Origin: Candidatus Poribacteria bacterium
Lineage (GTDB): Bacteria; Poribacteria; WGA-4E; PCPOR2b
NCBI GenBank assembly: GCA_028819845.1
Contig: JAPPKS010000027.1
Coordinates: 62,001 to 126,000 of the forward strand
Length of the DNA: 64,000 nucleotides
Reading direction: 5' to 3'
Below the pieces are notes generated by a model, which had not been told where the DNA came from, did no database searches, and saw only the letters and a program-made list of their open reading frames with translations. Of the stretch, positions 23,981 through 38,391 are shown piece after piece. A program made the translations under genes and the position numbers. Each line of letters starts with the position of its first letter. Within the stretch, counting starts at the first letter, position 1.

Positions 23981-24024
23981 TTTTTTTCTACCCAGCATAA
24001 CCTCCAATCCACGAAGTGTGTCTA
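23981..24024 (+). promoter_or_regulatory. ECF-type promoter motif, copy 1
   Basis: T-run (23981-23987), 11 bases, AAC (23999-24001), 18 bases, GTCTA (24020-24024). Exactly the same spacing occurs before the other two sigma-sensor genes (28601 and 34570), while the bases between differ. AAC at -35 and GTCTA-like at -10 are typical of promoters read by ECF sigma factors, so autoregulation is likely (inference). The leader to ATG 24090 is about 60 bases. Confidence 0.7.
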
Positions 24025-24089
24025 GATAATAGTTGCGCCCATTTTCATTGCGGCGCTGATTTTTCTCCTGTTTTGGATAGGTGGGTGTT

Positions 24090-27000
24090 ATGTATTCATC
24101 CGACGAAAAATTGGTGTCTCAGACTCTTGCGGGCGATCGAGACGCATTCGGCGTGCTCGTGCGCAAGTACCAGGGCGTGGTCTACACCTACGCATTCCAA
24201 AGGGTGAGGAACGAAGCCGATTCGCAGGACATCTCCCAAGAGGTCTTCCTGCGGGCGTACCGTCACCTCTATCAACTGCGGCATCCGCACCGGTTCCGAA
24301 GTTGGCTGTATACAATCATGGCGAACGAGTGCAACCGATGGCTGAAACGGGTATCCAAAAAACGGCAGCGTGAAATTGCGCTAGAGGACGCTGCGGACGA
24401 TGCCCTGCAGGTTGAACCCGCGCACACTGTCCCCACACCGGGCTGGGAGATTGACCTTGAACAGGCAATCTCTGCGCTCTCCGATGATAATCGGGTGGCG
24501 GTGGCGATGTTTTATATGGGCGAATGCTCGCTGAAAGAAATCTCGGAATTTCTCGGTGTCTCCGCGAACACCGTAAAGGGTAAGTTGTATAGGGCGCGCC
24601 AGCAACTCGGCAGCGCGATGTCTGTACGATACGGCAGATACTTGAAGAGCCACACACTCAAAGGAGGGTTTCTCATGCAGTTAACGGAGCAAATTCGCCG
24701 CATCCCAACACCAGCTATGGCTTTCACTTGGAGCAGCACAACGGTGAGCAAAACTCTATTTTCGCTAATTACGGCATTGTGCGTCTTAATTGGATTGATT
24801 GGAGGACGAATCCACACATCAACAGAGTTGTCAGGAAACCAGCTTTGGCCGACGCGGTCAGATGCGACCCGATGGCCAATTGAGGCGGCGTTTTACACAC
24901 CGGATCAATACGCAGCGAGTACCTCGGTTTCAGGTATTCCAACCCCTTCGGGAAAGCATCCGCTGTCTGTCTCCAACCGCGCCCCGACACGGCAAGGCAG
25001 CCAATCAATTGACAAAAAATCAGTTTCGTCGAACCGCGGTGCAAAGAATGACTTGGTGCGACTCCCGGCAACTGCAGCAGGGAACGAGGGTGAAAATCTA
25101 ATCTATTCTGGTCGAGTCGTTGACAGCGACGGCGCGCCGGTAGCGGATGCCGAAGTCTTTTACTCAATAAGACTCGATCCGTCCAAATCTGTCGCTCGCA
25201 CGGGGGCGGACGGGACGTTCCGCTTTAAATTCCCGCGCCCTAGCGTCAAGGAGCGGGATAAGGTTAGCATTGTCGCCAAGCATCCCAAGTACGCAATCGG
25301 GTGGCAGAATTGCCCGCTCCAAAGCAAATTGGATATCGAAATCCAACTCGGCACGCCGGGGGTCATTTCTGGAAGAATTCTGAACTCCGCAGGCGATCCA
25401 ATTCTGGATGCGGAAGCGCGTATTCAATATCTGTTTAGCGGTTATCCAACGTCGGGGATGCCCGAAGGAGATTTGGGCATGGATGTGTATCCCATTCAAC
25501 CCGCCGTAACCGATACCAACGGCGAGTTCGTTCTCCGCGGACTTCCCCAAGGCACAACAATCAACCTCCAGATTCTAGGACCGGGGTACGCAGAAGAGAG
25601 GCAATACAGTGTGCCGGTCGGTGCGAAAGAGCTGGAGTTTCGGCTAAAACGTGAAGCCCGGATTGAGGGACGCCTCAGCTACGCCGAGACCGGTGCACCA
25701 GTTATAAGTGCAACCGTCGGTCTACTGCGTATCGACCTTCCGGGCCCGGAGGTGTTGGGACGAGCTAGCGTTGATGCGAATGGCAATTTCCTTCTGCATA
25801 ACATCCCGCACGGAATGTACAATCTATTTCTTGATGAGGGACCAGAAGGGTGGACGGCTGTCGCCAAAGTAAACATTCAGGTCGATGAAGGGCAAACAGT
25901 CTCCAACGTTGACCTGTCCCTGGTTCGCGGCGGCTTCATCACCGCGCGAGTAAACGACCGGGACACAAACGAACCGATTGCTAATAGCTATGTCAGTTTT
26001 ATACCGTCCGGGGCATTAGGTGACGGTGGGAGAACGGACGAAAACGGCATCTATCGGTTTTACGCTGCGCCTGGACGCGTGCTCGTCTCCATTAGTGCGC
26101 CGTCTGGTTATCTGGATATAGGACGCATTCGCAGACATGTGGAGGTCGTCGAGGCTGAGACTGTCGCCGTTGATTTTCAATTCTCGAAAGGGATAGACTT
26201 AATTGTTCGAGCGGTGGCGGCAACGGGAAAACCGGTCAGTGGCGCGAGGATTTCCGACATTTCCGACAAACGGGAGTGGGATGAGGAGTACGGAAAATCG
26301 AGCGAAATTGGCGAGTTTACCGTTCGCGGGCTGCTGCCCGAACAGAAGTTAACTCTTAAAGCAGAACACAGTGGAATAAACCTTCGCGGAACGGCTAAAG
26401 TCGAAGTCCAACTTGGAGCGTCGGTCGAGATTCGGATGGAACGTTACGAACGTGTAACGGTTTCTGGGCGGGTGGTTAGCCGAGCGGGCAAACCTATTAC
26501 CACGGCAAACATCGAGTTGATGCGATGGTACCGTGAAATACACATGGGGCGGAGTTCCACTGCCGCCGTGACAGACGGCGATGGCCGGTTCCGGGAAATC
26601 GGGCTGATAATCGGCGATGAGTACGGCATCCGGGCAAATGCAAAAGGGTATGTGGGTGCGGAAACTGGAATCTTCACCGCCACGGCGGAGATGACCCAAA
26701 TTCCCGATCTCGTCCTGTCGCCAGCTGCCACCGATACGTATTTTATTGAAGGGCGCGTTACCGATACCTCTGGTGACCCAGTTCACGGGGCGAGGCTAGT
26801 TACAAGTCTGGAGTCGCAACACTCGGAAACACAAACTGACGAGAACGGGGATTATCGCCTTGAAAATCTTCCGACAGTTGTCATTCTCGAGTTGCGGATT
26901 TTCCATTCGGAATATGCCTACCATGAATTTAGGAATTTGAAAACCGATCAGCGGCACGACCTAGTGCTGGTCAAGGCGGACGGACACCTCGCCGGGAAGG

Positions 27001-27758
27001 TTGTGGACGCCCAAGGCAAACCGATTGAGAGGGCATTCGTGACGGTTGAAGCCGAAAAGGATTCTTCCGGTTACATTTACTCCGGCGTTGACACGAACTT
27101 ACTAGGTGAGTTTGAACTGAAATACATCAAAGACTCGGTTGTGTCAGTTTACGCCACCAATGGCACTGACTACAAGATTTTTGAGGGCATTAACGTTAAT
27201 CAGCGTGATTTAGTATTGACCCTAGCGCCGAACAAACCGAGACCGGAGCCGACTCCCGAGCACCGAGCACGCTGGAACGCACACGTATCTTACATGGAGT
27301 CACTTGACGAACGGTTTGAAACCTTATTTGGCAAAACTGCGCCAGAGTTGGCAGTAGCTGAGTGGCTGTCCGGTTCTCCCGCCGCCATCGGAGACTTGAA
27401 AGGGAAGATTATTGTTTTACATTCCTGGGATTTGAGTTACGTCGACGATCATGTCCATTGGATACGCCTGTTAAACATGTTGCAGGACGCGTACGGAGAA
27501 AAAGGACTTGTCTGCATCGCTGTCTGTCCCGCTTCAGAAGAAGTCCAAACCGTCAAACGACACATCGTAGAACAATCGCTGTCCTACTCCGTCGGCTTAG
27601 ACCGCCCGACAGAGGTCGTTGGCGCAAAGGGCGAAACGTTCGATCGATATGCGTTCGGGCAGTATTCATTCATCCTGATCGACGCCGCGGGAGAAGTTGC
27701 CGGGCGCGCTTGGGCGGAGGATCTGGAAATTCAAATTCATACGCTGCTTGCGGAATGA
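24090..27758 (+). CDS. Membrane-tethered ECF sigma factor with CnaB-like repeats and thioredoxin-fold end
   Basis: 1222 residues. Residues 1-175 are a complete ECF sigma factor: region 2 (about 20-87, with SQDISQEVFLRAYRHL and FRSWLYTIMANECNRW) and region 4 (about 124-172, helix-turn-helix LKEISEFLGVSANTVKGKLY). A link (176-220) leads to one membrane segment (about 221-240, LFSLITALCVLIGLIG). Outside follow about eight carboxypeptidase-regulatory/CnaB-like repeats (about 330-1070), each starting with a G-x-V/I-x-D/N-x-x-G-x-P-type strand. The end (about 1090-1222) resembles a TlpA/redoxin thioredoxin fold but has HSWDLSYVDDHVHW where WCxxC would be. No separate anti-sigma gene is adjacent. 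ATG 24090 has AGGTGG 5 bases upstream; an internal SD-ATG lies at codon 196. Confidence 0.85.
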   Translation: MYSSDEKLVSQTLAGDRDAFGVLVRKYQGVVYTYAFQRVRNEADSQDISQEVFLRAYRHLYQLRHPHRFRSWLYTIMANECNRWLKRVSKKRQREIALEDAADDALQVEPAHTVPTPGWEIDLEQAISALSDDNRVAVAMFYMGECSLKEISEFLGVSANTVKGKLYRARQQLGSAMSVRYGRYLKSHTLKGGFLMQLTEQIRRIPTPAMAFTWSSTTVSKTLFSLITALCVLIGLIGGRIHTSTELSGNQLWPTRSDATRWPIEAAFYTPDQYAASTSVSGIPTPSGKHPLSVSNRAPTRQGSQSIDKKSVSSNRGAKNDLVRLPATAAGNEGENLIYSGRVVDSDGAPVADAEVFYSIRLDPSKSVARTGADGTFRFKFPRPSVKERDKVSIVAKHPKYAIGWQNCPLQSKLDIEIQLGTPGVISGRILNSAGDPILDAEARIQYLFSGYPTSGMPEGDLGMDVYPIQPAVTDTNGEFVLRGLPQGTTINLQILGPGYAEERQYSVPVGAKELEFRLKREARIEGRLSYAETGAPVISATVGLLRIDLPGPEVLGRASVDANGNFLLHNIPHGMYNLFLDEGPEGWTAVAKVNIQVDEGQTVSNVDLSLVRGGFITARVNDRDTNEPIANSYVSFIPSGALGDGGRTDENGIYRFYAAPGRVLVSISAPSGYLDIGRIRRHVEVVEAETVAVDFQFSKGIDLIVRAVAATGKPVSGARISDISDKREWDEEYGKSSEIGEFTVRGLLPEQKLTLKAEHSGINLRGTAKVEVQLGASVEIRMERYERVTVSGRVVSRAGKPITTANIELMRWYREIHMGRSSTAAVTDGDGRFREIGLIIGDEYGIRANAKGYVGAETGIFTATAEMTQIPDLVLSPAATDTYFIEGRVTDTSGDPVHGARLVTSLESQHSETQTDENGDYRLENLPTVVILELRIFHSEYAYHEFRNLKTDQRHDLVLVKADGHLAGKVVDAQGKPIERAFVTVEAEKDSSGYIYSGVDTNLLGEFELKYIKDSVVSVYATNGTDYKIFEGINVNQRDLVLTLAPNKPRPEPTPEHRARWNAHVSYMESLDERFETLFGKTAPELAVAEWLSGSPAAIGDLKGKIIVLHSWDLSYVDDHVHWIRLLNMLQDAYGEKGLVCIAVCPASEEVQTVKRHIVEQSLSYSVGLDRPTEVVGAKGETFDRYAFGQYSFILIDAAGEVAGRAWAEDLEIQIHTLLAE
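24662..24677 (+). promoter_or_regulatory. Internal ribosome binding site and ATG, sigma-sensor 1
   Basis: AGGAGG (24662-24667), 7 bases, ATG (24675-24677) in frame at codon 196, just after the sigma domain and before the membrane segment. The same arrangement occurs at the same codon in both paralogues. It could start a sensor-only protein MQLTEQIRRIP... with an N-terminal membrane anchor. Confidence 0.55.
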
Positions 27759-27893
27759 CCTGTCCATCAATCAATTCCAAAACGGATCAAAAGGCAATTC
27801 TACCATCTTCTTCAATTCTAGTTTATTGTCTGGGTAAACGACACCCACAATCTTCTTAGAATCCCTGCATTAACATCCTCATCGTGGCGGAAT

Positions 27894-28220
27894 TTAATCG
27901 TTTGAGGCATGATTTTGATTCCATTCCGCGATTTTCTGCATCAGTGGGGAATGGGTCTTGGCACGCATCTCATCCTCTAATCTCTCCGACTCTACAATGT
28001 CTTGGCGAATTTCTTCTAGGTTGTCCAAATAATAAACCAGTGCGGCATAGACATCCGCCAATGTAATGGAAGGATAGTCATTGGCAATCTCATATGGGTC
28101 TTTGCCCATCTTATCGTGCAATATCACGATGTCTTGCACCCGAATCCGGTGTCCGGCGATGCGAGGTTTACCGCCGCAAATTCCGGGTGTGATTTCAATA
28201 TGCGGTTTGATTTTTCCCAT
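27894..28220 (-). CDS. DUF433-family (antitoxin-like) protein
   Basis: 108 residues. The family signature is clear: PHIEITPGICGGKPRIAGHRI, then VQDIVILHDKMGKDPYEIANDYP and ITLADVYAALVYYLDNLEEI. DUF433 proteins are small winged-helix-like DNA-binding proteins, often the antitoxin partner of a PIN-like (DUF5615) toxin. No such partner flanks it; about 135 bases follow to the end of sigma-sensor 1. ATG 28220 has AGGAGG 6 bases upstream and is preferred to an ATG at 28244. It stands alone on the minus strand inside the sigma-sensor cluster. Confidence 0.85.
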   Translation of the reverse strand: MGKIKPHIEITPGICGGKPRIAGHRIRVQDIVILHDKMGKDPYEIANDYPSITLADVYAALVYYLDNLEEIRQDIVESERLEDEMRAKTHSPLMQKIAEWNQNHASND

Positions 28221-28465
28221 TTTAAACCTCCTGATGTCAACCATTCTGGGTGGTGTGGGTCTAATTTGGATGAGGTTGTTTAATGTCTTTTCAACTCCTT
28301 TAGATTTTCTTGGAGTGAATTAATTACCGCGATGCTATCGTAATTTGCCGATCGCATTAGACCTTAGTCGAGCGTGAAATCAATGATTGGCCCCATTCAT
28401 TTTACACGCGGCAGCCTAGGTTTTCAACTGTTTATTGTTTGGATTGAAGATGGAGCACGCTAGCA

Positions 28466-28495
28466 AAATTTTTTTGCGGAGTAACTCTTTACCCG
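28466..28495 (+). repeat. Degenerate copy of the sigma-sensor 2 promoter box
   Basis: An A/T-run, then GCGGAG, TAACTCTTTACCCG. The same series, AATTTTTTCGCGAAG then TAACTTTTTACCCG, recurs at 28598-28630 in the promoter motif of sigma-sensor 2. Here the spacing between T-run and AAC is 4 bases shorter and no GTCTA follows, so this copy is probably inactive. Confidence 0.45.
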
Positions 28496-28526
28496 CGCCG
28501 TGATTCGATGATTCATAAGCAATGCA

Positions 28527-28576
28527 GGGCAAGATGCCCCGCCTATCATTGGTGTGTTGGGGCAAGGTGACCCGCT
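28527..28576 (+). repeat. Short direct repeat
   Basis: GGGCAAGATGCCCCGCC (28527-28543) and GGGCAAGGTGACCCGCT (28560-28576) are imperfect direct repeats with a 33-base period. CCTATC (28542-28547) and GATAGG (28579-28584) can pair around them. Function unknown. Confidence 0.45.
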
Positions 28577-28600
28577 GCGATAGGTGCATCCACACCCGAA

Positions 28601-28643
28601 TTTTTTCGCGAAGACATAACTTTTTACCCGGTTGATGGGTCTA
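28601..28643 (+). promoter_or_regulatory. ECF-type promoter motif, copy 2
   Basis: TTTTTT (28601-28606), 11 bases, AAC (28618-28620), 18 bases, GTCTA (28639-28643), identical in spacing to the motifs at 23981 and 34570. The leader to ATG 28707 is about 60 bases. Confidence 0.7.
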
Positions 28644-28706
28644 ATAAGTAGTTTTGTCTGGGCTGTTGGGGTGCTGTGGCGTGTTGTTTCGGTTGAGGTG
28701 TATATA

Positions 28707-30890
28707 ATGAATTCACCCGACGAAAACTTAGTGTCTCAAACCCTTGCGGGGGATCGAGACGCCTTCGGTGTGCTCGTGCATAAGTATCAGGACATGGTCT
28801 ACACTTATGCCTTTCAGAAGGTGCGGAACGAAGCCGACTCGCAGGACATCACGCAGGAGGTTTTCCTCCGGGCATATCGGCATCTCTGCAAACTGCGGCA
28901 CCCGCATCGGTTCCGAAGTTGGCTGTATACAATCATGTCCAACGAGTGCAACCGCTGGCTGGCGCGGGTCACGGAAACACGCCGGCGCGAGATTGCGTTG
29001 GACGACGTTACGGACGATGCCCTACAGATTGAACCCGCGCACACTGCCGCAACAGAAGGTTGGCAGGTGGACTTAGAGCGTGCAATCTCCGCGCTCCCGG
29101 ACGATAATCGCGTGGCGGTGTCGATGTTCTACATGGGCGGCTGTTCGATGAAGGAAATCTCAGAATTTCTCGGCGTCTCCGTGAATACCGCCCGGGGCAA
29201 GTTACATCGAGCACGGCAGCAACTCGGCACCGCGATGTCTGAACACTACGGTCGATTCATGAAGAGCCGCGAACTCCAAGGAGGATTCCTCATGCAACTT
29301 ATGGAGCAGGTACGCCATATCCCACCGCCAACAGTTGGGTTCACGTGGACCAGTGCAACTGTTAGCAAGACGGTATTTTCGTTGATTACGGCATTGTGCA
29401 TCCTGATTGGACTTATCGGAGCACGAGACAGCTCACCGAAAGCGTACGCAGGCAATCAAACTGCACTGTCGCCGCCAGACGCGAACCGCCCCATCCCGGT
29501 CGCGTTGCTTGCTTCGCCGCCATTCTCCGCACGCCCGTCAATTACGGGAATTCCTGCCGCGTCGGGGAAGCCTCCATTGGCGTCCGCCAACCGCGCCTCA
29601 GTGGAGCCGAACTCCGAGCCAGTTGACCGAGAAACCACTGCCGTGGCTGGGGGCGCCAAATCCCCAAGTCCGCAATTCGCAACTGCTGCATCGGTGAGCG
29701 GTTCCGATAAAATTGCCTTATCGGGCCGCGTGGTCGACATAGACGGCAATCCAATCGCGGGTTTCCCCATAGCTGTTGGACCGCTGATGTCATTTGACGG
29801 CAAAATCATGCCAATGTTCAGTTATGATTGGTTCAGGAGGGACGCACAGCCGTACACGTTCAAATCGGACACGGACGAAGAGGGGCGGTTTTCGATTTCG
29901 GGCATCAAACCCGGGCCTCTTCAGTTCATGGCACAGCCCAATCCTGTAACAAGCGATGACATGCCTCCGCACAGCTATAACCAAGACAATTTTGTAGACG
30001 CGGAGGTTTTGTCCATTGATACTGGCGCGATGACTTTTTATGCGGACTCCCAGCAACCGCCCCCACACGGTGGGATTACATTTACCATTGAGCCGGGGAC
30101 ACACCTTGAAAATTTTGAAGTGGTGGTTAAACCGCGGATGCGCATTCGGGGTCAAGTTGTATTTGCTGACGGCACACCGCTTGCCAAGGCGAAAGTTCTG
30201 ATTAGCGTGCGATGGCGTACACTTGATGGGGAAGGCACGGGAAGTAGCGGAGGATTACCACGCACTGACGAAGCGGGTTACTTTGTGCACTATGTGAATG
30301 AACCTGGGGTTTATGCAGTAGCCGTTGAATTTCAAGGACAATCGGCGATCTCGGAGCAGTTCGCTCTCGAAACCGGTCAACGGCATGATGATTTGGTCAT
30401 AGCGCTTGACAGCCAGCCAATTCCCATTGTGCGAACTCCGGATCGCGCCGCGCCGCCGAACCGAGATGGAGCTTGGGTGATGAATCCTGAAAATGGACAC
30501 GCCTATCGAAGCATTCATTGTGAAAGTTGGGAAGATGCTCAAGCGAAAGCGATTACCGAGGATGCCTACTTGGTTTCGATTAACGACGCCTCCGAGCAGA
30601 GTTGGCTGGTGAAAGTTTTTGGTACCGAGCCCTATTGGATTGGACTAACTGATTTCGAAAAGGAGGGTGAATGGCGATGGTCCAGCGGCGAGCCGATTTC
30701 TTACACGAACTGGGCGCCCAATGAACCGACCGAGTCGCCGCTCGGTGAAGAAGATTACGTCTTCATGGGTCTCAGTCAGGATGGACAATGGTTTGATGTT
30801 GGACCGGAAAGCCCACAGTGGCGGATGACCCAGAAGGCTATCATCGAAAGACAAGGTTTCGCCTCGTCACCACCCAATGAGAACGATTAA
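28707..30890 (+). CDS. Membrane-tethered ECF sigma factor with C-type-lectin-like sensor
   Basis: 727 residues. Residues 1-175 form a full ECF sigma factor, very similar to that of the gene at 24090 (region 2 SQDITQEVFLRAYRHL, region 4 MKEISEFLGVSVNTARGKLH). A membrane segment lies at about 221-240 (FSLITALCILIGLIG). Outside are a low-complexity Pro/Ser/Ala linker, one or two CnaB/carboxypeptidase-regulatory-like domains (about 305-560) and a C-terminal C-type-lectin-like domain (about 590-720) with YWIGLTDFEKEGEWRWSSGEP, YTNWAPNEPTE and DYVFMGLSQDGQWFDV. The domain replaces the thioredoxin-fold end of the two paralogues. ATG 28707 has GAGGTG 6 bases upstream; an in-frame ATG at 28632 would lie on top of the promoter motif. 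An internal SD-ATG occurs at codon 196. Confidence 0.85.
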   Translation: MNSPDENLVSQTLAGDRDAFGVLVHKYQDMVYTYAFQKVRNEADSQDITQEVFLRAYRHLCKLRHPHRFRSWLYTIMSNECNRWLARVTETRRREIALDDVTDDALQIEPAHTAATEGWQVDLERAISALPDDNRVAVSMFYMGGCSMKEISEFLGVSVNTARGKLHRARQQLGTAMSEHYGRFMKSRELQGGFLMQLMEQVRHIPPPTVGFTWTSATVSKTVFSLITALCILIGLIGARDSSPKAYAGNQTALSPPDANRPIPVALLASPPFSARPSITGIPAASGKPPLASANRASVEPNSEPVDRETTAVAGGAKSPSPQFATAASVSGSDKIALSGRVVDIDGNPIAGFPIAVGPLMSFDGKIMPMFSYDWFRRDAQPYTFKSDTDEEGRFSISGIKPGPLQFMAQPNPVTSDDMPPHSYNQDNFVDAEVLSIDTGAMTFYADSQQPPPHGGITFTIEPGTHLENFEVVVKPRMRIRGQVVFADGTPLAKAKVLISVRWRTLDGEGTGSSGGLPRTDEAGYFVHYVNEPGVYAVAVEFQGQSAISEQFALETGQRHDDLVIALDSQPIPIVRTPDRAAPPNRDGAWVMNPENGHAYRSIHCESWEDAQAKAITEDAYLVSINDASEQSWLVKVFGTEPYWIGLTDFEKEGEWRWSSGEPISYTNWAPNEPTESPLGEEDYVFMGLSQDGQWFDVGPESPQWRMTQKAIIERQGFASSPPNEND
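29279..29294 (+). promoter_or_regulatory. Internal ribosome binding site and ATG, sigma-sensor 2
   Basis: AGGAGG (29279-29284), 7 bases, ATG (29292-29294), in frame at codon 196, same position as in the two paralogues. A product from here would start MQLMEQVRHIPPP and contain only membrane segment and sensor. Confidence 0.55.
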
Positions 30891-31114
30891 CCTTAAATTT
30901 ACACAATTCGGTGAAAAATAACCGCATGGTAATGAACAATCGAATTACTGAGTGTTCGCAGCGCTACAATGTGTAAATCCAAACACACTTTCACGAACAA
31001 CCATCCTAATAGCCAGTTTGAATGAGTAAAAAAACGCCTGAAGGGTTGGTGTATAGGTTTAATCATCTGGTATCTCCACGAACAGTCAAGCATTAGGAGA
31101 AAGGAGCACCTATC

Positions 31115-32581
31115 ATGTTGGTTTCCTTGTCAAAGTGGAAGATTGTAGTGATTGGTCTAGGAGTTGTTGCGGCGGCTGTTTTCGCTGCACTTTTACATCG
31201 ACAGCATGTTGTGTTTAGCCAGAGCGATGGTTCACTGGAAGAGATTGCAACAAGCAACTATTTACAGGACTATTGGTGGACAACCGTCGTCAAAGGGGCG
31301 GACGAGGAGTTGACTCGTTTGCGCCACATTTCCGCTTCAACCTCATTTCAAAGCCCGCAATCCGTCGAAGCCCTTATGGAAGCGCATGACATCAATTTTG
31401 ACACTTGGGTTGACTCGCAGAAGATAAATTTCAGCGGCATCGACTTGGCAAAAGTCGATCGAGCATATCCGCGTGCAGAATACCTGCAGATGTTGCTGGA
31501 TAAAGGCCTGCTAATCGTGAACGGTGCGGAATACAATTCATTCCTCATGTACAGGTTCAATCTGCTACATTCTAAGCAGCAGTTTTTCGAGCAACCCCTG
31601 TTTGGACATGATGCCGATTACAAAAACAGTATGCTAGAACGTATGGGGCTGCCAGCGGACACGTCGCCGACACAGTTTGAAGAAGCAAGGATCCAGCATT
31701 TTTTGGAGACGCATTATTATGTGAAAGAAGCATTAAAAGACCCAACTTTCGCACAACAATGGAATGAAGGCAAATTTGTCACGATTGCCAGAGCCAAAGA
31801 TGGGACGCGTTTTCCGATGAGAGCGGACACCACCTATTTTAAATTGAACGGTAACGGCGGTGTAGACATGGGAGATATAGTTATGCCCGCTATGGGACTT
31901 TCTGCTCAAGATACGGATGCTATAATGAAACATTTGCAGCCCTTCCCTTTCGCGGAGAAACTGCCCGAACATGTCAAGATTGGCTTTATTGGTCCGGACG
32001 GCAAACCCGCTGATGCACCGAGGCGAGGAATGGCGAAGCTATGGGTGAATTTTGCCGGCATATTTGAAGATGATAGACCGGAGATTGCCCGTTCCGAGCC
32101 CGGCGTAGTGCATCCGTCAGAGGCAGATTCGCAACCTGCGAACGCTTTCGAACCGAAACCTGTATCCCGCTCATCACTTTGGACCTCCGCATCCGACTCG
32201 GCAATGGACGACTCCGCGCCTGTGGCAGCACCGCGCCACGCCGCACCGACGCTAGAGATGCCGGATTTTCCGGAGGGTTTGGAACAGCCGATCCCGGCGC
32301 CAATCGTCCCACCCAAATTGGAAAACCAAATGAAGCAAGCTGAGGATTGGAAATCGCCCGGCAGGGTTGAGGTGAATGAGTTGGAGAGGTTACTGAAGTC
32401 GTTGGAAGATACAGGTGACGCTACTTTTGTTCCAAATGTGCCAGATGACCCTGAAATGCTCCGTGATAATGATGTTTATAAAGACCGGAGCGAATCCAAT
32501 GAAAATCGACATGAATTCTATGAAGGGCGTAATGACTCCGAAACGAAAAGACCTGAATCGCCCGGGAAAAACCGGCGTTGA
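31115..32581 (+). CDS. Membrane-anchored protein of unknown function
   Basis: 488 residues; I recognise no family. One hydrophobic segment near the N-terminus (about 8-28, WKIVVIGLGVVAAAVFAALL) should act as a signal anchor and place the rest outside the inner membrane. Residues 30-310 look folded, with aromatic-rich stretches such as YLQDYWWTTVVKGADEEL. The last 150 residues are Pro/Ser/Glu/Asp-rich and probably disordered, ending in a highly charged tail (KRPESPGKNRR). It lies between the lectin-type sigma-sensor gene and the secreted lectin-type gene, on the same strand. SD AAAGGAG 9 bases before the ATG. Confidence 0.7.
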   Translation: MLVSLSKWKIVVIGLGVVAAAVFAALLHRQHVVFSQSDGSLEEIATSNYLQDYWWTTVVKGADEELTRLRHISASTSFQSPQSVEALMEAHDINFDTWVDSQKINFSGIDLAKVDRAYPRAEYLQMLLDKGLLIVNGAEYNSFLMYRFNLLHSKQQFFEQPLFGHDADYKNSMLERMGLPADTSPTQFEEARIQHFLETHYYVKEALKDPTFAQQWNEGKFVTIARAKDGTRFPMRADTTYFKLNGNGGVDMGDIVMPAMGLSAQDTDAIMKHLQPFPFAEKLPEHVKIGFIGPDGKPADAPRRGMAKLWVNFAGIFEDDRPEIARSEPGVVHPSEADSQPANAFEPKPVSRSSLWTSASDSAMDDSAPVAAPRHAAPTLEMPDFPEGLEQPIPAPIVPPKLENQMKQAEDWKSPGRVEVNELERLLKSLEDTGDATFVPNVPDDPEMLRDNDVYKDRSESNENRHEFYEGRNDSETKRPESPGKNRR

Positions 32582-32670
32582 CGCCCAACAATTTGTCGCC
32601 CTGAACGCTAAACGATTGCTAAGAGTACATCCAGCTAGAAACAGCGTTTACAGCTCGATTGATATGTGAG

Positions 32671-32719
32671 TGGCAACGCCATCGTCTAGTCATTCCCCGG
32701 TAAAAAAACCGGGTTGCCA
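32671..32719. repeat. Inverted repeat with A-run loop
   Basis: cccggt (32696-32701) and accggg (32708-32713) close a loop of six A, and TGGCAA (32671-32676) with TTGCCA (32714-32719) can add an outer stem. It may terminate or separate the transcripts of the genes on either side. It recalls the hairpin at 46-78. Confidence 0.4.
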
Positions 32720-32820
32720 AGAAATCAAACCCTAATTGGCTTCGTCAAAAGACCGATTTGGGTCATTCACAGAGGGACTCGTCCTCGGTCGTATACAACA
32801 TTCCGAAGGAGGCATCTACC

Positions 32821-34062
32821 ATGGACTGGTTACATTTAAAGTGTTTATACACTGCGCTTCGTCGAGAGAAGCTGCGGCTAGTTATTGCGATAATGGTATT
32901 TTCATTCGCCGCATCGTTGCAGGGCGCCGCTCTGGAAGGTACTTCTACACTGTCCGGACGTGTTGTGGATTTGGAAGGTAACCCGGTTGCAGGATTTGGG
33001 CTATCCCTTTTACCGTTTTCACTTGAATCAGCCGAAGGAACCTTCATCACACTTTCAGAATCGCACTCTGACGAAATGGGACGTTTTTCGATGAGCAACA
33101 TCCCGCCGGCAAAAGTCCGATTAACACCGGCCACCAAGTTTTATCATTCGTCCGGGACCAGCGGCGAAATCGTTTCCGTAAAGGTTGCGGCACTGACCGT
33201 GTACCGGCACGAGAATTCCCCTTGGCAGGGAATTGCGTTTGCTATTAAGCCGGACGTGCACGTTGAGAATGTCGACGTCAGAGTGAAATTGCGGAATTAC
33301 ATTCGGGGACGCATTGTGTTTCTCAATGGCACCCCGCTTTCCAGTGCGAGGATTAATGTCAGCGTAAACCACCGTACGCCCGACGGGACGGGTAGCGGCA
33401 GCTCAAGTTCCTCGAATGAGACAGACGCTGACGGCTACTTTAAATACTACGTAGATGAATCGGCAATCTACACAATGACGGTGAACTATCACAGGCTTTC
33501 GGCGTCAGCAGATCCCTTCCTGCTAGGACAAGGAGAAGACAGAGAAGATTTGGTTTTCACGCTCGACAGACTTCCGAATTGGCCTGAAGGTCCCACTGGT
33601 CGAGTCGAAGTTTCTGCGGAAGTATCAACGTCACCACGGGGCGTCGGCGCAGCGTGGGTGGTGAATCCGGCAAATGGGCACGCGTACAAGCGAATTCGTA
33701 GCGAGAGTTGGAATGAAGCCAACACTCATGCTGCTGCCGAAGATGGGTATCTCGTTGCAATCAACGATGCAGCAGAGCAGGACTGGATATCAAAAACCTT
33801 TGGACCAAATCGGTGCTGGATTGGACTGACCGATTATGCGAACGAAGGGGAATGGGTTTGGGCGAACGGTGAGCCGGTGACATTCACAAACTGGGCGCCC
33901 CATGAACCGCACGATAAAGACACGGGAGAGGAAGATTTCGTTTCGATGGGATTATCGGGTGAATGGTTCGACGTGGGTCCTGCAAGCATAGAGTGGCGCC
34001 TGCCGCACATTGCTATCATCGAAAAGGACAGCACTCCCGGGAAGACGACACGAACAAAGTAA
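32821..34062 (+). CDS. Secreted CnaB / C-type-lectin-like protein without sigma domain
   Basis: 413 residues, closely related to the extracytoplasmic part of the protein at 28707. It opens with its own signal or anchor (about 17-40, LRLVIAIMVFSFAASLQGAA) in place of sigma factor plus membrane segment, then a CnaB-like domain (STLSGRVVDLEGNPVAGFGL), a second beta-rich domain with IRGRIVFLNGTPLSSARI, and a lectin-like domain (about 275-405: CWIGLTDYANEGEWVWANGEP, FTNWAPHEP, DFVSMGLSGEWFDVGP). The start ATG 32821 has AAGGAGG 8 bases upstream; a 21-residue longer reading from 32758 has none. It may bind the same ligand as the sigma-linked lectin. Confidence 0.85.
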   Translation: MDWLHLKCLYTALRREKLRLVIAIMVFSFAASLQGAALEGTSTLSGRVVDLEGNPVAGFGLSLLPFSLESAEGTFITLSESHSDEMGRFSMSNIPPAKVRLTPATKFYHSSGTSGEIVSVKVAALTVYRHENSPWQGIAFAIKPDVHVENVDVRVKLRNYIRGRIVFLNGTPLSSARINVSVNHRTPDGTGSGSSSSSNETDADGYFKYYVDESAIYTMTVNYHRLSASADPFLLGQGEDREDLVFTLDRLPNWPEGPTGRVEVSAEVSTSPRGVGAAWVVNPANGHAYKRIRSESWNEANTHAAAEDGYLVAINDAAEQDWISKTFGPNRCWIGLTDYANEGEWVWANGEPVTFTNWAPHEPHDKDTGEEDFVSMGLSGEWFDVGPASIEWRLPHIAIIEKDSTPGKTTRTK

Positions 34063-34569
34063 ATTGCCGGTCACTGCTAAATCCTGATTCGCTTCGCTAA
34101 TCTATTAGAATCGCAGCGGTGTAGGTTGGGTCGAACGCGTATCGCTATCTGCGGCAGCCGCGGTGCTGCAATTGGCTTTTATGCGGCCTGAATCTATGTA
34201 AACACCTCTCTGGTAAAAACCCCGCCTTTTTATTCCGTTTCATCCAATTCGAAAACTTCTCGCGTCAAGATTATCCGCAGGATAACCCATCAAATTGCAG
34301 TCTGCCGGTCCATAACAGACGATTCCGGTGTAGTCCATCTAATCATGAAGAGAATTTGCGCCATAGACAAGATCTGCCCCGTTGCCTAGTTATCGCAAAT
34401 TTGGTTTGTCTTTCATCTCCGTCCGCTATTCGCCCCACCTTTGATGTAGTTGTCCCATAAACACAGCCTTCCTATCCCCTGTCGCGGTTGTGTGTTTTAT
34501 ATTCTCATTGAAGCGGGATTCAATTGTCTAAGACATCTCTTGGGTGCTATTTCTTGAGTTTTTCAACTA
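34063..34569. other. Non-coding interval before sigma-sensor 3
   Basis: About 500 bases without a credible gene. One hairpin (acacagcc 34461-34468 with ggttgtgt 34486-34493, then a T-rich run) could be a terminator for the preceding gene, though it stands 400 bases away. The conserved promoter-like motif begins at its end. Confidence 0.45.
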
Positions 34570-34612
34570 TTTTTTCCACGCGGTGCAACCTCTGGTACAC
34601 TTGATGTGTCTA
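34570..34612 (+). promoter_or_regulatory. ECF-type promoter motif, copy 3
   Basis: TTTTTT (34570-34575), 11 bases, AAC inside GCAACC (34587-34589), 18 bases, GTCTA (34608-34612). Spacing equals that of the motifs at 23981 and 28601. The leader to ATG 34663 is about 45 bases. Confidence 0.7.
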
Positions 34613-34662: not shown

Positions 34663-37600
34663 ATGTATACAGCCGACGAAAAGTTAGTGTCTCAAACGCT
34701 CGCAGGCGATCGAGATGCCTTCGGTGTGCTCGTGCACAAGTATCAGGACATGGTCTACACCTATGCCTATCAGAAGGTGCGGAACGCAGCCGATTCACAG
34801 GACATTACGCAAGAGGTTTTTTTAAAGGCATTTCGCCATCTCCAAAAACTGCGGCATCCGCATCTCTTCCGGAGCTGGCTGTATACAATCATGTCAAACG
34901 AATGCAAACGTTGGCTGGAGCGCGTTACGAATAAGCGCCGGCGCGAGATTGCGCTGGAGCAGGCAGTGGACGACTCACTGCAGATTCAACCTGAACACAC
35001 GGTGCCCACACAGGGCTGGCAGGTAGACCTTGAACAGGCAATGTCAGAGCTCCCTGACGAAAGCCGACTCGTCGTGTCGATGTTCTATGCAGGTGATTAT
35101 TCGCTGAAGGAGATTTCAGAGTTTCTCGGTGTTTCCGTCAATACCGTTAAGAGCAAGTTGCGCCGTGCACGGCTGCAGCTTGGCAGCGCACTGTCTGAGC
35201 ATTACGGCAGATTCGTAAAGAGCCGCAATCTCGAAGGAGGGTTCCTCATGCAGCTAATGGAGCAGATTCGCCACATCCCATCTCCAACCATAGGGTTCAC
35301 GTGGGGCAGCACAGCAGTAAGCAAGGTGCTATTTTCGCTGATTACGGCAATGTGTGTTTTGATTGGAATAATTGGGATAGGCGATTCGCCGAATATGTCC
35401 CCAAACAACCAGATCGGGTTGTCGCAATCGTACAAGAGCCGATGGCCGATTGAGGTGAAATTTTTTACGCCAGATCACTACACATCGCGCCCTACTGTTT
35501 CAGGAATTCCATCCCCGGCGGGAAAGCACCCGGTGGGAGTCTCAAATCGCGCACTAACAGAGCAAAACCGAAATTCAACTGGACTCGGGTCAAATTCGGG
35601 GAAACTCGGTGCAAGGACCGCCACGCCGCAACTCCCCGCGGTAGCAGCGGCGAAAGAGGAGGAAATAATAACTTATTCAGGCCGGGTCGTCGACAATGAC
35701 GGTGCACCGGTACCGGATGCTAAACTTCAATATGCCATAGAGTCCTATCCGCGTGGAGGGGACGCCGAATCCGTATATTTCACATACCCTGACCGTAAAT
35801 ATGATACCCGCACTGGGAAGAATGGGGTTTTTCGATTTGAAATTTCGCCTACCAAACGCAGATCGACGCATTTCAATTTTAAGAACACGCTGAATTTCTT
35901 ACAGATTGCTGTTGCGCATCCCGATCATGCAATTTGGTGGAAGGAATATCCATTCCAAAGTACGGCAGACGTTGAGATTGAACTTGAAGCCCCAAAAATC
36001 ATTACTGGCAAAGTAATGAATGAGGCGGGCGATCCGATTAAGAACGCGAAGGTTTTGATTCAATCCGTTTTCCGTGGTCAAGGGGAACGCGGAGATAGAT
36101 TGTCACATTTTGCCTTGCCTAAACGCGTCAAGACGGACACTAATGGGGAGTTTGTGCTCCCAGGATTGCAGCAAGGTACAAAAATAAGCCTTGATGTCCA
36201 AGCATCGGGATACGCAAAGGAGTTTCGCCACAGCGTGCCGGTCAGCGGAAAAAGGCTCAATTTCCGGCTGACGCGTGAGGGCAGGATTGAGGGGCGCATC
36301 ACATATGCGGACACCGGGAAGCCGGTCAAAAGCGCGATGGTGTCGCTTCAGGGCATCTATCCGACCGTTGGGGCGGGACAGTCACCAGTTCGAAGGGGAA
36401 AATATCGCCTGAATTATGTCGCCCCCGGTACATACAGCCTTTATCTACATCAGGGGCCGAAAGGATGGACTGCCCTTCCCGAGGAGTTCATTACAGTCAC
36501 TGGCGGACAGACCGTTACTAATGTGGATTTTGCCCTGATTCGGAGCGGTTTCATCACTGGGCGGGTGACCGATCTGGACACAAACGAACCGATTGCCGGC
36601 CATACTATCAGATTAAATGATGCGGTCCGTCCGCAAGGATCTCAACTGGGGGCTCACCATATAATAACAGATGCAACCGGCGCTTACAAATTTGACGCCG
36701 TGCCCGGTGAGGCGGTCGTGCACACTAATACACCGCCGGGCTATCAAGATATAGGCTGGACCGAGAGATTGGACATCGGACAGGTTGAGAGACGTGTGGA
36801 GGTCGTTGAAGGCGAAACTGTGACCGTCGATTTTCAATTTTCGAAAGGGATTGATCTGACCGGCCGGCTTGTGGACGAGACCGGTAAACCGGTGGCCGGC
36901 GCGAAAATTTCAAACGATCGGATGCGTCTCAAAAAATACGGCACATCAGATGGGTTTGGTAGGTTCACTGTTGACGGACTGCGAGTTGGAAGTAATCTTG
37001 GCCTCAGAGCAGTAAATAGCGAATTGGGATTGCGAGGAACGGTCGAGATTGAGGTCCAACCGGATTTGCCAGTTGAAATACGAATGAAACGTCAACAGCG
37101 AATCGCGGTCTCCGGACGAGCAATTGACGGTGAAGGCAAACCGATGCCGTTGGCGAACGTCCATCTGATTCACTGGGACCATCAACGAGGTATCGGTGCT
37201 GACACCATTGTCGATGTGACAGATGACGATGGGCGGTTCCAGAATATTTCACTCATAGTTGGCGATAAATACGAAATCTATGTGAAACTAGACGGGTATC
37301 GAAATGCTGAAACCGATCAGTTCACCGCCACAGCGGTGATGACCCAAATTGCGGATTTCGTCCTGTTGCCAGCCGGCGGGCAGTTTTTTGTTGAAGGGCG
37401 TGTCATTGACGACTCTGGCGAGCCGGTTAGCGGCGTGCAACTTAGCATCAATCAGGCGGGGCAACACTGGTCAAGCCGCACCGATGAAAACGGTTATTAT
37501 CGAATGGAAGAACTTTCTATGGCGGTTATTTCCGCGCTGTACATTTTCCATCCGGCGTATCCAGACCTTGAAGTCAGAATTTTAAAAACCAACCGACGGC

Positions 37601-38391
37601 ACGACTTTGAACTAGTCATGGCGATAGCATATCTCGCCGGGAAGGTAGTGGACGCCGAAGGCAAACCGATTGAACAGGCGCGGGTCATGGTAGGTGGCGA
37701 AGAAACGCCCTTCTCCAGCTACCGATACCCCGTTGCTTACACTAACGTGTACGGTGATTTTGAACTACCGAACATAAAGGGTCCGGTCGTGTCAATGGGT
37801 GTCTACCATAAAAGGTACCGCAAAACATTCAAGGATATCGCGGTGAATCAACGCGATTTAGTTTTAACTCTAACGCCGTCCGAACATAAACCAGAGCCGA
37901 CGCAGGAGCAGCAGTTACAGCGGTCATACGCCGCGTCCGCCGAAGATCGCTTCAATACATTGCTGAACAAGACGGCGCCGGGGTTGGCGGTTGTAGATTG
38001 GCTGTCCGGTTCACCCGTATCCATCGGAGAGTTGGAAGGCAAGACGATAGTTCTACATTTCTGGGATTTGAAGCGCTCCAATCATATACAATGGATTCGC
38101 CTGTTGAATATTTTGCATGAGGTTTACGGTGAAAAAGGCCTCGTCTGCGTCGCCGTATGTCGCGCCGCCACCGAGATTGAGGCGGTCAAACGACACATTA
38201 CTGAACAGTCGCTGTCATGCTCGATCGGACTAGACCGCCCAGCTACAGTCGACGGCGCGAAAGGCGAGACATTTGAACGATATGCTGTCGGGTGGCATCC
38301 GTTCATCCTGATTAACGCGGCGGGAGAAATCGCCGGGCGCAGTTGGGAACATGACCTGGAGGCTAAGGTTCAGACATTGATTGTAGACTGA
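34663..38391 (+). CDS. Membrane-tethered ECF sigma factor with CnaB-like repeats and thioredoxin-fold end, second copy
   Basis: 1242 residues, paralogue of the protein at 24090 over its full length. Residues 1-175: ECF sigma factor (SQDITQEVFLKAFRHL; region 4 LKEISEFLGVSVNTVKSKLR). Membrane segment at about 221-240 (LFSLITAMCVLIGIIG). Then about eight CnaB/carboxypeptidase-regulatory-like repeats and a C-terminal thioredoxin-fold domain in which the redox site reads HFWDLKRSNHIQW, again without CxxC. The last block (GEKGLVCVAVCRAATEIEAV) aligns well with copy 1 (GEKGLVCIAVCPASEEVQTV), and both keep this pair of cysteines separated by three residues. The upstream SD AGGTG and promoter motif match the other copies, and AGGAGG-N7-ATG occurs at codon 196. 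Confidence 0.85.
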   Translation: MYTADEKLVSQTLAGDRDAFGVLVHKYQDMVYTYAYQKVRNAADSQDITQEVFLKAFRHLQKLRHPHLFRSWLYTIMSNECKRWLERVTNKRRREIALEQAVDDSLQIQPEHTVPTQGWQVDLEQAMSELPDESRLVVSMFYAGDYSLKEISEFLGVSVNTVKSKLRRARLQLGSALSEHYGRFVKSRNLEGGFLMQLMEQIRHIPSPTIGFTWGSTAVSKVLFSLITAMCVLIGIIGIGDSPNMSPNNQIGLSQSYKSRWPIEVKFFTPDHYTSRPTVSGIPSPAGKHPVGVSNRALTEQNRNSTGLGSNSGKLGARTATPQLPAVAAAKEEEIITYSGRVVDNDGAPVPDAKLQYAIESYPRGGDAESVYFTYPDRKYDTRTGKNGVFRFEISPTKRRSTHFNFKNTLNFLQIAVAHPDHAIWWKEYPFQSTADVEIELEAPKIITGKVMNEAGDPIKNAKVLIQSVFRGQGERGDRLSHFALPKRVKTDTNGEFVLPGLQQGTKISLDVQASGYAKEFRHSVPVSGKRLNFRLTREGRIEGRITYADTGKPVKSAMVSLQGIYPTVGAGQSPVRRGKYRLNYVAPGTYSLYLHQGPKGWTALPEEFITVTGGQTVTNVDFALIRSGFITGRVTDLDTNEPIAGHTIRLNDAVRPQGSQLGAHHIITDATGAYKFDAVPGEAVVHTNTPPGYQDIGWTERLDIGQVERRVEVVEGETVTVDFQFSKGIDLTGRLVDETGKPVAGAKISNDRMRLKKYGTSDGFGRFTVDGLRVGSNLGLRAVNSELGLRGTVEIEVQPDLPVEIRMKRQQRIAVSGRAIDGEGKPMPLANVHLIHWDHQRGIGADTIVDVTDDDGRFQNISLIVGDKYEIYVKLDGYRNAETDQFTATAVMTQIADFVLLPAGGQFFVEGRVIDDSGEPVSGVQLSINQAGQHWSSRTDENGYYRMEELSMAVISALYIFHPAYPDLEVRILKTNRRHDFELVMAIAYLAGKVVDAEGKPIEQARVMVGGEETPFSSYRYPVAYTNVYGDFELPNIKGPVVSMGVYHKRYRKTFKDIAVNQRDLVLTLTPSEHKPEPTQEQQLQRSYAASAEDRFNTLLNKTAPGLAVVDWLSGSPVSIGELEGKTIVLHFWDLKRSNHIQWIRLLNILHEVYGEKGLVCVAVCRAATEIEAVKRHITEQSLSCSIGLDRPATVDGAKGETFERYAVGWHPFILINAAGEIAGRSWEHDLEAKVQTLIVD
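35235..35250 (+). promoter_or_regulatory. Internal ribosome binding site and ATG, sigma-sensor 3
   Basis: AGGAGG (35235-35240), 7 bases, ATG (35248-35250), in frame at codon 196, identical layout to the other two copies. The product would start MQLMEQIRHIPSP. Confidence 0.55.

Follow-up and report, generated by a model that had tools for sequence, protein, structure and literature searches.

Most ECF sigma factors autoregulate, and typical ECF promoters carry AAC at -35 and CGT or GTC at -10 (PMC8103513, PMC3817407); GTC/TCTAA -10 elements are known for sigmaE-type ECFs (PMC2893595). The autoregulated promoter of Acinetobacter SigAb, a separate, non-fused sigma factor, was shown experimentally to combine the -35 GTCAAC and the -10 CGTT with an UP-like A/T run upstream of the -35, the replacement of which cost about tenfold activity (PMC12153292). 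A TCTAA-type -10 and an AT-rich upstream element are likewise features of sigma-E in Neisseria meningitidis and Escherichia coli (PMC2893595), and the E. coli -35, GGAACTT, contains AAC, as do the sites described here. Fusion of sigma2-sigma4, a membrane helix and an outer part in a single protein is known from ECF48, ECF52, ECF53 and IutY, which are actinobacterial or pseudomonad and possess a zinc-finger or FecR-like anti-sigma segment; the outer domain of ECF52 is carbohydrate-binding (PMC8999054). The SigI/RsgI systems of cellulolytic clostridia comprise several paralogous, autoregulated sigma units per genome with outer sensors and a homopolymer tract in the promoter, but there sigma4 is missing, the A-tract lies inside the -35 and the sensor is a separate anti-sigma protein (PMC6056542). 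The T-tracts of Bacillus ECF promoters sit between the -35 and the -10 (PMC6056542, PMC6767563), unlike the poribacterial T-tract described below, which lies upstream of the -35.

The window, that is, the whole stretch of 64,000 nucleotides of a Candidatus Poribacteria genome that was analysed, encodes three paralogous sigma-sensor proteins on the forward strand: gene 1 (24090..27758, 1222 aa, membrane helix at about 223-241), gene 2 (28707..30890, 727 aa, helix at about 219-237) and gene 3 (34663..38391, 1242 aa, helix at about 222-240). In all three, sigma2 (about residues 23-88) and sigma4 (about 122-173) are followed by one membrane helix at about 219-241 and an outer part made of CarboxypepD_reg domains, with a C-type lectin domain added in gene 2 and a weak AhpC/TSA-like match, below the Pfam cut-off, at the C-terminus of gene 1. 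The sigma part matches Pfam Sigma70_r2 and Sigma70_r4_2 and NCBIfam TIGR02937 above the cut-offs, with sigma2 and sigma4 as the only promoter-reading domains, as in ECF (group IV) factors; the solved structures nearest to it are those of SigH, SigW and sigmaE. The named relatives of the proteins (74-78% identity) come from Candidatus Poribacteria metagenome-assembled genomes, which are also the nearest relatives of the window genome. A hydrophobic helix behind sigma4 is present in 47 of the 53 sigma-gene homologues of at least 330 residues. One sigma4 residue, which we take to correspond to position 175 of E. coli sigmaE, varies among the three paralogues (Y/H/R). The AlphaFold model of residues 1-270 (mean pLDDT 58) is of too low confidence to reveal how the linker could keep the sigma part inactive. 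A membrane helix and an outer part are thus fused behind sigma4 in all three proteins, as in ECF48, ECF52 and ECF53; no Pfam zinc-finger anti-sigma domain was detected between sigma4 and the membrane helix in any of them, nor was a FecR-like segment, and therefore we do not file the poribacterial proteins with these groups or with IutY.

Two further kinds of genes occur in the vicinity. Between genes 2 and 3, a gene at 32758-34062 (the real start is perhaps the ATG at 32821) encodes CarboxypepD_reg and C-type lectin domains that resemble the outer part of gene 2, without a sigma domain, and appears to be a sigma-less sensor relative. A DUF433 gene (27894-28244, minus strand) adjoins the sigma-sensor locus, and in one of the other genomes (G001) a toxin-antitoxin-like pair of DUF433 and DUF5615 (PIN-like) genes lies beside the homologous locus (L127:1621-2290, minus strand).

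Each of the three genes is preceded by the same arrangement of a T-run, AAC and GTCTA on the forward strand. Site 1 consists of a T7 run (23981..23987), the last six T of which are in register with the other sites and which is a putative UP-type element, a candidate -35 core AAC (23999..24001) and a candidate -10 element GTCTA (24020..24024). The corresponding elements are T6 at 28601..28606, AAC at 28618..28620 and GTCTA at 28639..28643 in site 2, and T6 at 34570..34575, AAC at 34587..34589 and GTCTA at 34608..34612 in site 3. The equal gaps of 11 and 18 bases reported in the first-pass annotation were found in all three sites, and the distance to the start codons, given there as 45-65 bases, amounts to 65, 63 and 50 nt when counted from the final A of GTCTA. 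The same annotation described the intervening bases as different; they are indeed not identical, but 29 of the 43 bases are common to sites 1 and 3 and 19 of the 43 columns are the same in all three sites, whereas dinucleotide shuffling of the three upstream regions (160 nt each, 60 rounds) never gave more than 15. At 28469-28495, some 130 bp ahead of site 2, there is what looks like a degenerate second promoter start (T7, seven bases, AAC and TCTTTACCCG) that lacks a -10.

The patterns used for the searches were picked after the window sites were known, so the evidence that counts comes from other genomes. For footprinting, we used 15 close homologous genes of two families from seven poribacterial genomes, namely the window genome and six others. 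The upstream regions of these homologous sigma-sensor genes do share the motif: AAC-N18-GTCTA is exact in 11 of the 15, and in another three it departs by one step (GTCTT, ATCTA or N19). At the single homologue without a site (G012:C60:1592), the region is occupied by a gene for an IS110-family transposase directly upstream. AAC is invariant in all 14 aligned sites, as in ECF-type -35 elements, and all 14 have T at -15 to -12 relative to AAC, an A/T block at a fixed distance as in UP elements. The conserved columns comprise the T-run, AAC(C/T)T, (T)GTGTCTA and then an AT-rich TTATTA; the base ahead of GTCTA is T or G, so that GTC is kept and the C of the usual CGT is not. In one gene of G009 the site is 173 nt from the ATG, and in two genomes (G001 and G006) it heads a two-gene unit, some 1.5-1.7 kb ahead of the sigma-sensor gene; the first gene of this unit encodes a lipoprotein-like protein with LVIVD repeats. 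In G006, a decayed sigma-sensor gene (L117; G006:C18:67571, minus strand) has lost the sigma domain by deletion as well as the start codon, yet its promoter is still present, as is a long reading frame for the sensor.

Given the 73-78% identity of the gene 1 sigma part to those of genes 2 and 3, the obvious alternative is duplication, in which the three genes would have the motif in common only through upstream DNA that was carried along and has no function; the bases common to sites 1 and 3 are also compatible with such an origin. Orthologous sites are not statistically independent, and for that reason the flanks were used as an internal control. When the sites are anchored on AAC, pairwise identity is 88% in the motif, 48% in the spacers and 27% in the flanks, the last value being equal to chance. 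It is mainly this footprint, with motif columns at 88% next to flanks at chance identity in two families, that makes functionless copying very improbable, and the spacing is intact even where the site has moved to the head of a two-gene unit. The motif thus appears to be kept by selection and not by recent copying, as judged from this pattern of conservation.

With respect to specificity, the core and the complete motif behave differently. The window contains the bare core, AAC-N18-GTCTA, four times, where 1.0 would be expected; 2 of 100 shuffles contained at least four. Across the 4.6-Mb genome, which is a draft that is 97% complete, the core is not enriched, with 89 matches against 230 for the reversed-pattern control; it cannot, therefore, define a regulon and was rejected for this purpose. 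When the T-run and RY before AAC are added, there are exactly three unmismatched matches in the genome, which are the three sites described above, and the strict pattern T5-N9-RYAAC-N18-GTCTA has nine exact matches in the 38.7 Mb of the seven genomes, all at sigma-sensor genes or their operon. These counts, obtained by pattern searches, show that specificity comes from the T-run and not from the -35/-10 core alone. An extended -35 plus discriminator core without the T-run was also tried and rejected; of its 22 matches in the seven genomes, only 8 are at these genes or the relic copy. Many of the extended-core matches outside these loci lie inside ORFs; the exception is a site without a T-run, AACCTGTA...GTCTGTCTAAT, that four genomes (g2; L295, L296, L307 and L312) have in front of an orthologous response-regulator gene and that is possibly a further target or a chance match.

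Other poribacterial sigma-sensor subfamilies share this layout with a T-run but have -35/-10 sequences of their own. In the related f3 family, a T-run is followed by ATTATG-N3-C, 16-17 bases and GCGTCA(C/T)TA. Even without the T-run, the strict f3-type pattern has 18 matches in four genomes, of which 13 precede sigma genes, compared with none for the reversed control; 37 of 82 such genes have a T-run of at least four, correctly spaced ahead of a -10-like site, against a mean of 2.2 in mononucleotide shuffles, a control that preserves nothing but base composition. A few non-sigma genes also stand behind an f3-type promoter (ATTATG-N3-C...GCGTCAYTA; L274-L291), among them one that, judged by eye, resembles a HAD hydrolase and one that resembles a MoxR-type ATPase. 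A subfamily of MRTEDG proteins, found in the window genome, G009 and G012, has the promoter GTGA(C/G)ATTT and CGTCT(A/T)ACAT. The stretches of sigma2 that read the -10 differ in parallel with the promoters (LRHPHRFRSWLYTIM, LKEPQRFAGWLYVIA and LKRWD-FLAWLYAIT); the -10-reading loops of two subfamilies are LRHPHRFRSW and LKEPQRFAGW, and their promoters have GTCTA and CGTCACTA, respectively. As in autoregulated ECFs, a conserved promoter lies before the sigma gene and is paired with the sigma subfamily. This pairing of promoter type with sigma2 residues is as autoregulation predicts and, although not proof, supports self-recognition.

The best explanation, and in our assessment a very probable one, is that the three sites are ECF promoters with a fixed UP-like T-tract, read by the sigma factors encoded downstream, with autoactivation and probably cross-activation of the paralogues. 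Each site would be read by RNA polymerase in complex with an ECF sigma factor of this family; sigma4 would read AAC as the -35 core, sigma2 would read and melt GTCTA and the AT-rich stretch behind it as the -10 and discriminator, and the T-tract 11 bases upstream of AAC would serve as an UP-type element. What is observed is a conserved motif that is restricted to these genes and paired with the sigma subfamilies; a transcription start at each site is predicted from it. The reading sigma factors would be the products of the genes immediately behind the sites: on triggering of the outer sensor domain, the cytoplasmic sigma part held at the membrane would become active or be released and would transcribe its own gene, resulting in positive feedback, a sequence of events that we derive from established ECF biology (PMC8103513, PMC3817407, PMC8999054). 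The three paralogues probably activate one another too, since their promoters are the same and their DNA-reading residues nearly so. Two features speak against this explanation, namely the T or G that stands ahead of GTC where CGT would have its C, and the sigma4 residue at position 175, which is unlike among the paralogues; the latter could tune cross-activation. The common ECF-type promoter proposed in the first-pass annotation is supported by the footprint in the six other genomes. The UP-like role that it assigned to the T-run is in line with the fixed placement in all aligned sites, at a location typical of UP elements, with binding of alpha-CTD as the presumed mode of action. Its suggestion of self- or cross-regulation agrees, as far as self-recognition goes, with the promoter/sigma-subfamily pairing; the identity of the reading sigma factor and the cross-activation are predictions.

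The sites could also be real promoters that are read, in a cascade, by a different ECF sigma factor of the genome, in which case co-conservation of promoter and sigma could stem from one other sigma reading all copies. In favour of this, about 28 matches to the sigma part are present in the genome, cascades from one sigma factor to another are on record (PMC3817407), and the AAC-N18-GTCTA core also stands ahead of a plain ECF gene on contig 21; we nevertheless consider this unlikely, given that the strict motif is found only at sigma-sensor genes or their operon and that the subfamilies are unlike in both the promoter and the sigma2 reading residues. The upstream sequence of that non-fused gene (L061; G000:C21:41856-41881, minus strand) reads TTTTTTG-AAC-N18-GTCTAATATA and points to possible cross-talk. 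It is highly improbable that the conserved block is instead the binding site of another regulator, a housekeeping promoter, an RNA element or a terminator remnant: a dimeric DNA-binding protein could also suit the fixed spacing and a T-run can resemble a terminator tail, but both the sequences and the spacing match ECF promoters. Neither sigma70-like promoters nor terminator-like stems were found on the sites, their numbers being equal to those in shuffles, and there was no Rfam match at the sites.

Under the preferred reading of a self-activating ECF promoter, the system appears to work like a standard autoregulated one: AAC at -35, a GTC-type -10, ECF spacing, the position directly before the sigma gene and conservation among homologues are common to both. 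It differs from autoregulated ECF promoters in general (PMC8103513, PMC3817407) in that GTCTA lacks the C of CGT, a fixed T-tract lies upstream of the -35 and the gene is a sigma-sensor fusion. The meningococcal sigma-E promoter differs from the poribacterial sites in its -35 and spacing, and sigma-E has a separate anti-sigma factor (PMC2893595). The principle of the self-activating sigma promoter is known, but this family and its promoter code appear to be undescribed; the best matches in a full-text search, with most subscription journals outside its coverage, included no paper on poribacterial sigma factors, and the sigma-sensor family may already have an ECF group number.

More tentatively, and with considerable doubt, these genes could form an array of receptors that activate one another. 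A single poribacterial genome would then have up to dozens of membrane-anchored sigma factors, with unlike sensors and one T-tract promoter code per subfamily, that mainly target each other's genes. If so, many outside signals would feed one positive-feedback sigma pool and not separate regulons. Poribacteria are uncultured and sponge-associated, and the sponge matrix or other cells may be what the outer domains sense. For this large family of sigma-sensor fusions, the motif provides a concrete, testable promoter code, marked by the T-tract and not by the -35/-10 core alone, that makes targets and autoregulation testable in laboratory hosts.
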